Assembly: GCF_015040615.1 (NCBI RefSeq) | Contig: NZ_CP060402.1 | Coordinates: forward strand, 1,178,001 to 1,242,000 | Direction of reading: 5' to 3' | DNA from: Microbacterium sp. YJN-G | GTDB lineage: Bacteria; Actinomycetota; Actinomycetes; Actinomycetales; Microbacteriaceae | Length of the DNA: 64,000 nucleotides | In this document: piece by piece, positions 38,561-41,443 of the stretch | Layout of the letters: every line of letters starts with the position of its first letter | Numbering within the stretch: position 1 is the stretch's first letter | Notes under the pieces: generated by a model | Seen by the model: only the letters and a program-made list of their open reading frames with translations | Database searches by the model: none | Told to the model about the DNA's origin: nothing | Program-made: the position numbers and the translations under genes

Positions 38561-38646
38561 CCGCCGAAACCCCTCAGCAATGTCGAAACCCCTCCTGAAT
38601 CACGCGATTCAGGAGGGGTTTCGGCAACCACGAGGGGTTTCGGCGG
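38561..38646. repeat. 86-bp nested palindromic repeat, copy 2
   Basis: Outer arms CCGCCGAAACCCCTC (38561-38575) and GAGGGGTTTCGGCGG (38632-38646) are perfect complements. Inner arms CGAAACCCCTCCTGAATC (38584-38601) and their complement (38606-38623) leave a 4-nt loop. Relative to copy 1 the inner stem carries a paired G-C to C-G change, which suggests the stem is selected. It lies 104 bp upstream of the DUF559 start. Confidence 0.92.
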
Positions 38647-38687
38647 AAGGCGCCGGGGTGGAGAGGGTGGGGATGCTCCTATGGATG

Positions 38688-39746
38688 TCAAGTCCGGATC
38701 AGGGTGTAGTAGATCTCTCGGGCGATGAGGCGTTTGAGGCAACGGATGATGTCTTTCTTGGTGAGGCCTTCTTCGGTGCGTCGGCGTGCGTAGGCCTGGG
38801 TTCTCGGATCCCAGCGCAGACGGCAGAGGACGATGCGGTAGAGGGCCGCGTTCGCTTGTCGATCGCCGCCGCGATTGAGTCGGTGTCGGTGGGTCTTCCC
38901 GGACGATGCGGGGATCGGAGCGGCCCCGCAGAGCATCGCGAACGCGGCCTCGGAGCGGAGACGGTCGACGTTCTCCCCTGCAGTAACGAGCAGCTGCCCG
39001 GCGACGTCAGCACCGACGCCGTTCAGCTCCAGCAGGGCGGGGTTGATCGCGGTGACGAGGGGTTCGATGATCGCGTCGAGTTCGACGATCTCCTCGACCA
39101 GCGAGGCGTGCCGTCGCGCCAGCGCGCGTAGGGCGATCTTCGTCGCCTGCTCAGGCTCGCCCGCACGGGCCGTGTCGGGGCGTAGCGCCGCGCAGGTGCA
39201 CAGCAGCTCCCGATCCGAGAGGTGCCGAAGACGCTCGCGGAGCTCGTCGGGTGCAGTGACCAGCAGGGTCTTGATGCGCCGGGTGCAATCAGCGCGCTGG
39301 TCGACCGCACTCCGTCGCGCGACACGCAGATTTCGGAGCGCTTCGACCTTCCCGGTGCGGTCTTTTGGAACTCCGGTGCGGACCCGAGCCAGCCCTGCAC
39401 GGGCTGCAGCCTCCGCATCCAGCGGGTCGGACTTCCCCGCGAACCGACGGGCCTTCCGGTCAGGCCGGTCGATCTCCAACAGATCAACCCCAGCACCGCG
39501 CAGATACCGGGCAAGCCCGGCACCGTATGCGCCGGTGCCCTCGATCGCTGCCAGCAGCACGACCCCGAACGCCACGGCCCAGCTCAGCAGCGCCGCATAC
39601 CCAGTCATGTCAGCAGGGAATTGCTGGCAACCCAGCAGCCGGCCAGTCGTATCGATCACCGCGGCCGTATGCGTGTCCCCGTGGGTATCGACTCCGACAG
39701 TTACCTCGATCTGGTCATCTTCGACTTCTCGTGCGATGGTGGTCAT
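38688..39746 (-). CDS. IS110-family transposase (DEDD recombinase)
   Basis: The 352-residue recombinase has an N-terminal RuvC-like DEDD domain (VTVGVDTHGDTHTAAVID, LAAIEGTGAYGAGLARYL, RRFAGKSDPLDAEAAARA), a coiled helical middle, and the C-terminal Transposase_20 domain with LNGVGADVAGQLLVTAGEN, FAMLCGAAPIPASSGKTHRHRL (Ser nucleophile in ASSGKT) and RRRTEEGLTKKDIIRCLKR. All key residues look intact, and there is no frameshift. The ATG at 39746 follows GAGAGGA. IS110 recombinases are guided by a structured bridge RNA from the noncoding end. Confidence 0.93.
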   Translation of the reverse strand: MTTIAREVEDDQIEVTVGVDTHGDTHTAAVIDTTGRLLGCQQFPADMTGYAALLSWAVAFGVVLLAAIEGTGAYGAGLARYLRGAGVDLLEIDRPDRKARRFAGKSDPLDAEAAARAGLARVRTGVPKDRTGKVEALRNLRVARRSAVDQRADCTRRIKTLLVTAPDELRERLRHLSDRELLCTCAALRPDTARAGEPEQATKIALRALARRHASLVEEIVELDAIIEPLVTAINPALLELNGVGADVAGQLLVTAGENVDRLRSEAAFAMLCGAAPIPASSGKTHRHRLNRGGDRQANAALYRIVLCRLRWDPRTQAYARRRTEEGLTKKDIIRCLKRLIAREIYYTLIRT

Positions 39747-39794
39747 CGCCGTTCCTCTCACTCAATCGGACAGAACGGCACGCACCGCCGAGAG

Positions 39795-39965
39795 CGAGTG
39801 GACAAGACAGTGATGGGTGCCTGCTGGCACAGGCTCCTATGAGGTCACAACCCTCGCACGGTGAGTGCAAGGCAGCCCCGCAGCGAACGACCGACAGATC
39901 CCGTTCAAGACCCGAAGTCAGTCAGACGCAGAGTCAGGACGACCGCTGCGGGGCTCCCACCACCA
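39795..39965 (-). ncRNA. Candidate IS110 bridge RNA
   Basis: The 5' noncoding end of the element, read on the minus strand, contains a 12-bp stem (AGCCCCGCAGCG, 39944-39955 with 39876-39887) enclosing a target-binding loop. Inside are GCGTCTGAC (39921-39929), identical to the left flank in metY, and GGGAT (39900-39904), complementary to ATCCC at the right flank. A second section holds CATAGGAGC (39835-39843), identical to the right end of the element, and CATCACTGTC (39808-39817), complementary to its left end (39967-39976). This order and polarity match the left/right target and donor guides of IS621-type bridge RNAs. Transcript ends are guesses. Confidence 0.7.
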
Positions 39966-39974
39966 TCATCACTG

Positions 39975-41294
39975 TCAGACGCGGGCGGCCTCGGCGACCG
40001 CGCGCGCGGCGGCGAGCGCCTGCTCGAGGTCGGACTTGAGGTCCTCGACGTTCTCCAGGCCCACCGACAGGCGCACCAGGCCCGGGGTGACGCCGCTGGA
40101 GAGCTGCTCCTCCGGGGTCAGCTGCGAGTGCGTGGTCGACGCGGGGTGGATGACCAGCGAGCGCACGTCACCGATGTTGGCGAGGTGGCTGAACAGCTTG
40201 AGGTTGTCGACGAACGCACGGCCGACGTCGACGCCGCCCTTGAGCTCGAACGACAGCACCGCGCCGACGCCCTTCGGGGCGTACTTGTTCGCGTTCGCGT
40301 ACCAGGGCGACGAGGGCAGGCCCGCGTAGCTCACCGAGGCGACGTCGTCGTGGTTCTCGAGCCACTCGGCGATCTCCTGCGTGTTCTGCACGTGACGCTC
40401 GATGCGCAGCGACAGGGTCTCGATGCCCTGGATGAGCTGCCAGGCGCTCGCCGGGGCGATCGCCGGACCCGTGTCGCGCAGCAGCTGCACGCGCGCCTTG
40501 ATGATGTACGCGATGCCGTCGCCCAGCACACCCGAGTAGCTGACGCCGTGGTACGAGGGGTCGGGCTCGGTGAGGCCGGGGAACTTGTCGGCGTGCTCGG
40601 ACCACGGGAAGGTGCCGCCGTCGACGATCGCGCCGGCGATGACCGTGCCGTGCCCGCCGAGGAACTTCGTGGCGGCGTGGATGACGATGTCGGCGCCGTG
40701 CTCGAACGGGCGCACGAGGTACGGGGTGGCGATGGTGTTGTCGATGACCAGGGGCACGTTGTTCTCGTGCGCGATGTCGGACACCGTGCGGATGTCGAGC
40801 ACGTTGATCTTCGGGTTGCCGATGGTCTCGGCGAAGAACAGCTTCGTGTTCGGGCGCACCGCGCTGCGCCACGCCTCGGGGTCGTCCTGGTCCTCGACGA
40901 AGGTGGTCTCGATGCCGAGCTTGGCCAGCGTGTAACGCAGCAGGTTGTAAGTGCCGCCGTAGATCGCGGACGAGGCGACGACGTGGTCGCCCGCACCGGC
41001 GATGTTCAGGATCGCCAGCGTCGCGGCCGACATGCCCGAGGCGAGCACGAGAGCGCCGGTGCCGCCCTCGAGAGCGGCCAGGCGCTGCTCGACGACATCC
41101 TGCGTGGGGTTCTGGATGCGCGTGTAGATGTTGCCGCTCTCGGCGAGCGAGAACAGGTTCGCGGCGTGCTCGGTGTCACGGAACACGTACGAGGTCGTCT
41201 GATAGATCGGGGTGGCACGCGAGCCGGTCACGGGGTCCGGAGCGGCGCCGGAGTGGATCTGCTTGGTCTCGAAACGCCATTCTGCTGCGCTCAT
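39975..41294 (-). CDS. metY: O-acetylhomoserine aminocarboxypropyltransferase (sulfhydrylase)
   Basis: The 439-residue PLP enzyme turns O-acetylhomoserine and sulfide into homocysteine. Landmarks are [27 protein letters not shown] at the N-terminus, [22 protein letters not shown], the PLP lysine in [16 protein letters not shown], and the closing [15 protein letters not shown]. The ATG at 41294 follows GGGAG. An IS110 element is inserted at its stop codon without changing the reading frame, and metX lies 2.66 kb downstream on the same strand. A palindrome TGTTACGTAACA and a short peptide frame overlapping the start lie upstream. Confidence 0.95.
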
Positions 41295-41365
41295 CGGAAC
41301 TCCCAGGGGGCGAGGATGTCGGGTGGAGGGCGGATGCCCTTCCAGCGACAGTACGGAAGCAGCAT
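41291..41365 (-). other. Possible 24-codon leader peptide overlapping the metY start
   Basis: A frame from ATG 41365 runs 24 codons and ends in a TGA that overlaps the metY ATG by ATGA. It includes one Cys and a Pro-Pro-Pro run. No ribosome binding site is visible, so it could be chance. If real, it would couple metY translation to an upstream peptide. Confidence 0.25.
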
Positions 41366-41387
41366 GAAGCGGACAAACGGCGGGAAA

Positions 41388-41399
41388 TGTTACGTAACA
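41388..41399. promoter_or_regulatory. TGTTACGTAACA palindrome between metY and an SDR gene
   Basis: A perfect 12-bp palindrome lies 94 bp upstream of metY and 45 bp upstream of the SDR gene. TAACAT on the metY strand overlaps it as a possible -10 box. A regulator of sulfur or methionine genes could bind here, but the palindrome matches no operator I can name with confidence. Confidence 0.4.
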
Positions 41400-41443
41400 C
41401 ACCGAATGCCCGGTCTGCGACCGGAAAGTCGTACGGTGGAGGC

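Follow-up and report, generated by a model that had tools for sequence, protein, structure and literature searches.

The 64,000-nucleotide stretch of Microbacterium sp. YJN-G that we analyzed, referred to here as the window, contains on its minus strand an insertion sequence of the IS110 group (38674–39974; 1301 bp with both core dinucleotides included), one of three copies in the genome that are identical throughout their 1301 bp. The element encodes a 352-aa DEDD transposase/recombinase (38688–39746, minus strand; ATG at 39746, with the open frame running from a GTG at 39761) that combines the N-terminal DEDD domain (PF01548, 2.8e-24) and the C-terminal Transposase_20 domain (PF02371, 1e-16) of the IS110 family, both exceeding the curated cut-off. 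Its non-coding ends measure 226 bp on the left (39747–39972) and 12 bp on the right (38676–38687), which is the layout of the IS110 group; the IS1111 group would need a long non-coding region downstream of tnp together with subterminal inverted repeats and was rejected, as only 12 bp lie between the tnp stop and the core. The left end abuts the gene for a metY-like Cys/Met metabolism PLP enzyme (39975–41402, minus strand), whose TGA stop codon (39975–39977) is also the last triplet of the left target. The motif TTGAC, found in 46 of the 48 right ends of the elements tabulated below, would fit a promoter reassembled in the circular form; integrated copies would be without this promoter half, so that read-through from the upstream gene is a natural candidate source of RNA. 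A second IS110-family element in the genome, on another contig (C2) and with 36% identity to the first, is present in two copies (L004 and L005) within approximately 2.7 kb of shared sequence.

The left end contains a predicted bridge RNA region (39780–39974, minus strand; MFE -94 kcal/mol, z -3.56) in which a target loop is followed by a donor loop within a predicted, covarying structure, as in other members of the IS110 group. An initial annotation had proposed an IS110 bridge RNA whose four guides can all be read against the actual insertion, and we located all eight segments involved on the minus strand, three of the eight intervals lying 2 bases away from where they had been placed. The left target guide GCGTCTGAC (39921–39929; 8 nt plus the core C) equals the metY end GCGTCTGAC at 39974–39982, both exactly where they had been reported; this junction comprises the left target GCGTCTGA (39975–39982) followed by the core dinucleotide CA (39973–39974) and by GTGATG, the right donor half at the start of the left end (39967–39972). 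The right target guide GGGAT complements ATCCC at 38670–38674, that is, the right target TCCC (38670–38673) together with the last base of the right core dinucleotide CA (38674–38675), and it lies at 39898–39902 instead of 39900–39904. The left donor guide CATAGGAGC equals the right end of the element, CATAGGAGC at 38675–38683, which includes the left donor half CATAGGAG (38676–38683), and was found at 39833–39841, not 39835–39843. The right donor guide, proposed as CATCACTGTC against the left end GACAGTGATG (39967–39976), is likewise present, at 39806–39815 in place of 39808–39817; it consists of CATCACTG, which would pair with the core and the left end, and then TC, which faces the GA of the metY stop, outside the element. 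The 12-bp stem said to close the first loop is exact, with its 5′ arm AGCCCCGCAGCG (39944–39955) pairing throughout with its 3′ arm CGCTGCGGGGCT (39874–39885). The guides follow the order LTG-RTG-LDG-RDG, are complementary to target and donor and, as had been claimed, have the order and polarity described for IS621 in the text of Durrant et al. 2024 (PMC11208160). In a leader of 195 nt, chance would be expected to give 7e-4 exact matches to a 9-mer, 2e-4 to a 10-mer and 0.19 to a 5-mer, so that GGGAT is unconvincing taken alone; its case as a candidate guide rests on where it lies and on how it covaries in relatives. No Rfam family scored above cut-off. Two sub-threshold Rfam matches to a plastid 3′UTR (38577–38627) were set aside, as they correspond to a local inverted repeat; this GC-rich repeat (38561–38650), immediately to the right of the insertion, recurs in at least three further places in the genome at 86–91% identity, and from these matches looks like a dispersed intergenic palindrome.

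The predicted fold is accompanied by covariation. Across four helices, 145 cells were changed on both sides, whereas shuffles gave 60 and none of 500 reached as high a value; the covariation score was 0.465 vs 0.176 in shuffles, no slid version came near, and the putative target-loop stem in particular is strongly supported by compensatory changes. On the donor side, the right donor guide tracks the left end among relatives: CAGTGATG occurs with CATCACTG and CAGAGATG with CATCTCTG, a two-sided T/A change seen in 7 of 29 aligned elements. RNAalifold draws the right donor guide and the left end as one RNA helix because the guide complements that same left end, and whether the RNA would hold both segments depends on where it starts.

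The three copies occupy the sites GCGTCTGA/CA/TCCCTCC, GCGTCTGA/CA/TCCCCAC (the copy in the window) and GCGGCTGA/CA/TCCCGTC, which have 0, 0 and 1 mismatches to the predicted 14-mer target GCGTCTGACATCCC, the counterpart of the donor CATAGGAGCAGTGATG. The proposal that target choice can be predicted, with an 8-nt left half ending at the metY stop, is thereby borne out, as the copies match 14, 14 and 13 of the 14 letters. Across the rest of the 3.6-Mb genome the 14-mer has no exact match; two sites differ from it by 1 mismatch and 32 by 2, none of them occupied, and by these counts a few best sites among millions of positions were selected by the guide. The guide is not an absolute address: some near-matches stay unfilled, including the two 1-mismatch sites (GCGTCCGACATCCC and GCCTCTGACATCCC), which match as well as the site of the third copy does. 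One further copy (L003) adjoins an ABC permease gene. Another (L001) lies antisense within a gene for a putative zinc peptidase, and its site matches the guide in all 14 letters, from which it appears that the letters, not translation, are read. The initial annotation was silent both on this copy that is not behind a gene and on the stop triplet found in the guides of most relatives.

The relation between guide and site extends to related elements. A scan of genome contigs gave 118 loci, of which the best 80 were kept (92 to 46% identity), and 47 of these 80 together with our own three copies make up a table of 50 elements, the others being without recognizable ends or loops. Left ends, right ends and loops were found by fixed patterns picked without regard to agreement between guide and site; two loci (L038 and L065) had two left ends each, and the outer one was chosen by hand. 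In L065 (2728–2790), a 51-bp duplication of the left end reaches up to the left target guide, and the second left end immediately follows a copy of the guide sequence. In five other elements (L040, L044, L051, L061 and L063) approximately 1.5 to 2.4 kb separates the left end from the transposase match downstream of it, an arrangement that might have come about by insertion of DNA between the putative bridge RNA region and the gene. For the left guide, 10 columns were compared (the last 9 left-flank bases and the first core base) in 49 elements, L045 being excluded, and the flank agreed with the element's own guide in 419 of 490 letters, own copies included, compared with a mean of 294 and a maximum of 325 in 10,000 shuffles. 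From -8 through the core, each position agreed with the own guide at 0.84 to 1.00, whereas -9 gave 0.12; because agreement falls to background there, we take the left guide to comprise 8 nt and the core base. For the right guide, 240 of 329 letters agreed (shuffle maximum 216) in 47 elements, since L032 and L074 were without a right end and the right flank of L045 was masked. The ATC of the right target is nearly constant; the next two letters agree at 0.85 and 0.77 with the own guide vs 0.35 and 0.24 with other guides, and the letter beyond these is near background (0.38 own vs 0.26 other). The predicted right guide would be 5 nt, as initially proposed. When each of the 32 guide classes was represented by one row, agreement remained at 269 of 320 letters on the left (shuffle maximum 212) and 151 of 210 on the right (maximum 142). 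Taking the 14 predicted letters together, 17 of 47 sites match fully, 19 have 1 mismatch, 7 have 2 and 4 have 3. The core is CA on the left in 49 of 50 elements, with TA in one (L077), and CA on the right in 46 of 48, which agrees with the earlier statement that both junctions share CA, unlike the CT of IS621; three relatives (L065, L070 and L077) have guides ending in T. An unchanged loop at unrelated sites had been named as the outcome that would count against this reading; instead, the three identical copies are all at guide-matching sites, and relatives with different loops occupy sites matching their own loops.

We consider it highly probable that the locus as a whole is explained by an IS110-group element whose predicted bridge RNA places it, at a CA core, after GCGTCTGA, and whose stop-triplet guides allow insertion at gene ends. 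The guide segments, their match to the sites of the three copies and the covariation of guide and site across relatives are direct observations. In the proposed mechanism, minus-strand transcription of the left end would yield a bridge RNA with two internal loops, the second of which would pair with the end-to-end junction of the excised circle, CATAGGAG/CA/GTGATG, and the recombinase would then swap strands at the CA core so as to place the element after GCGTCTGA; we infer the transcription, the pairing within the protein complex and the strand exchange. Because the last triplet of the guide equals a stop codon, a match to the sense strand of a gene may fall at the end of that gene, in which case the gene would stay whole and the element would be co-oriented with it. 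That the stop triplet itself is favored for sparing genes is a further and less certain step.

The triplet before the core is TGA in 23 and TAA in 3 of the 32 guide classes, together 26, and is not a stop in the other 6. In 25 distinct guides, the distal letters from -8 to -5 turn over (entropy 1.87, 1.02, 1.76 and 1.80), and the CTGA that follows is mostly kept (1.03, 0.87, 0.95 and 0.24). A stop triplet also ends 38 of the 48 sites with enough flank, L045 and L089 having left flanks of less than 300 bases and thus falling outside the gene-end test. This test asks whether a reading frame open for 80 codons or more, with third positions resembling those of coding sequence (GC3 contrast), ends exactly at the triplet, requirements by which low-contrast genes are missed; by it, the triplet is the in-frame stop of the upstream gene at 19 of the 38 stop-triplet sites, and the other 19 failed. 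Pfam families above cut-off lie in the frame of the stop at 16 of the 19 gene-end sites, many reaching the last profile positions, and include MetY, ABC-2 permease, catalase C-terminal, AMP-binding C-terminal, DUF2469 and others; the exceptions are L035, with sub-cut-off matches only, and L038 and L100, with none. Outside the 19, the right frame also yields a Pfam match at L050 (TAA), L060 (TAA, a transposase remnant) and L064, three sites that failed the gene-end test. As background, gene ends made up 7 of 73 positions where a stop triplet plus CA is within 3 mismatches of any stop guide (Fisher 7e-6) and 12 of 90 of all CTGACA positions (Fisher 3e-5); a smaller first CTGACA null gave 2 of 39, and we use 12/90 because it is less favorable. 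Within our own genus alone, the CTGACA background rises to 11 of 56, and so two of three copies at gene ends here prove nothing by themselves.

A later sample was drawn with a donor-loop pattern from 394 and 396 whole genomes and from viral contigs. Its 12 non-own loci, less one that repeats the flank of L051 (L237) and three with non-stop guides (L245–L247), leave 8 stop-guide sites, 5 of which are gene ends (binomial 0.0017 vs 12/90). One of the five (L248, 8897–10200) lies on a viral contig, immediately after an open frame of 180 codons; the 8 sites also include that of L236, with a stop in its guide and GGA at its site. The left ends of L244–L247 were located by eye because the pattern missed them; L245–L247 are three copies of one element with the guide CTGG. 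Among the six non-stop guide classes of the tabulated elements is that of four copies in Phytohabitans flavus (L036, L039, L084 and L108), whose common guide is GCGGA and three of which have the right flank ATCATCGCGGTAGC in common, perhaps a repeat. Among distant IS110 relatives (approximately 50% identity), inspected by eye and uncounted, no stop triplet preceded the core at readable sites.

These data bear on whether the stop triplet is more than incidental. We propose, tentatively and with some doubt, that a branch of IS110 elements in Actinomycetota evolved stop-anchored guides, in which TGA or TAA is kept while the distal bases change, placing new sites just behind genes and in their orientation. 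There is a nearly even prospect that the guide works as described and the stop triplet is incidental, TGA|CA being a recombinase preference or inherited and the gene-end copies being survivors. The near invariance of the -1 and core positions of the guide (entropy 0.24 each in 25 distinct guides) speaks for this, as do the existence of non-stop guides in 6 of the 32 classes, the perfect match of L001 inside a gene, by which gene context is not needed, and the fact that the stop label requires only 5 changes on the transposase tree, from which 4 rows with short frames were omitted and in which a broken frame makes L075 an artefact. Against it, positions -3 and -2 do vary (TAA, CAA, GGA, TTA, AGA and TGG triplets) and so are not fixed by chemistry, and TAA is the commonest substitute for TGA, in 3 of the 9 non-TGA classes, a small number. 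Half of the stop-triplet sites failing the gene-end test, together with the intragenic position of L001, indicates that the stop is not read as a stop. As an RNA is blind to reading frame, the excess of gene ends needs either the loss of harmful insertions or guides that were set historically by gene-end sites. Loss of gene-disrupting insertions alone could produce the excess, and it probably accounts for part of it; the guide permits gene-end sites and fixes orientation, and selection may do the rest.

Two further readings are both very improbable. In the first, the ends are misassigned, GCGTCTGA and TCCC being part of the element and the agreement of guide and flank reflecting common descent, as might be thought from the 7–8 left bases and the right TCCC common to the three copies. 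Identical or near-identical elements nevertheless differ in this segment, with GCGTCTGA vs GCGGCTGA here and left flanks that include ATCAACTGA, GTCAACTGA, GTCTACTGA and CTCAACTGA in Nonomuraea jabiensis, where six elements have one common guide and differ in the distal target bases. In that genome 8 sites are within 2 mismatches of the 15-letter guide, 5 occupied and 3 empty, and the sixth copy is at a site with 3 mismatches. Element-free relatives, moreover, keep the TGA: among the best-matching same-genus loci fetched, out of 149 genomes, the gene stops at the corresponding TGA in all 29 metY loci and in all 14 ABC permease loci, the sequence after it being mostly different. From these relatives and the N. 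jabiensis flanks, the left target half is host DNA, here a host gene end with its stop codon, and misassignment is largely refuted. The second, in which protein contacts of the recombinase recognize the target and the similarity of the loop has some other cause, has only the conservation of core-proximal bases in its favor and hardly survives the agreement of guide positions -8 to -4 with the own site (84–98% in 49 elements, vs 24–71% with elements that have other guides).

IS900 of Mycobacterium avium subsp. paratuberculosis is an IS110-family element of an actinobacterium whose site and orientation preference lies at the start side of genes (ribosome-binding/start), not at the stop codon. 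Guide-directed recombination by a bridge RNA has been demonstrated experimentally for IS621 (Durrant et al. 2024, PMC11208160), and by analogy the mechanism best supported for the present element would be IS621-type bridge RNA-guided recombination, here with a CA core in place of CT. According to the text of that study, IS621 targets REP elements, whereas many copies of the element described here and of its relatives lie where a gene ends, stop codon included. Where the same text compares guides with target motifs, only CT-core guides were kept (PMC11208160), so that CA-core elements such as the present one fall outside that part. The seekRNA of ISEc21 (IS110 type) similarly lies in the non-coding region upstream of tnp, and in the accessible text of Siddiquee et al. 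2024 (PMC11187229) the seekRNA systems (ISEc21 and IS1111 types) resemble the present one in their target-matching RNA stretches and in natural reprogramming among relatives, and differ from it in their targets. The phrase ‘stop codon’ is absent from the main text of PMC11208160 and from the accessible text of PMC11187229, in which ‘termination codon’ occurs once. In the literature searched, which took in few subscription papers and no supplements, we found no report of stop-codon-aimed IS110 guides; IS900 (PMC8141618) is among the nearest known systems.

The machinery is known and published, and what is new here is a variant, the combination of a CA core with stop-containing guides. Its relatives amount to a natural data set of 49 guide–target pairs, nearly all with a CA core and readable letter by letter, which sets the length of the left guide at 8 nt and the core, and that of the right guide at approximately 5 nt (core A plus TCNN). 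If guides are indeed anchored on stop codons, they would spare the host and would bring the integrated bridge RNA and the recombinase under read-through from a host gene. Were this anchor selected, it would represent an RNA-guided route to harmless, transcribed sites behind genes, one that would be useful to engineers of bridge recombinases and that is directly testable.
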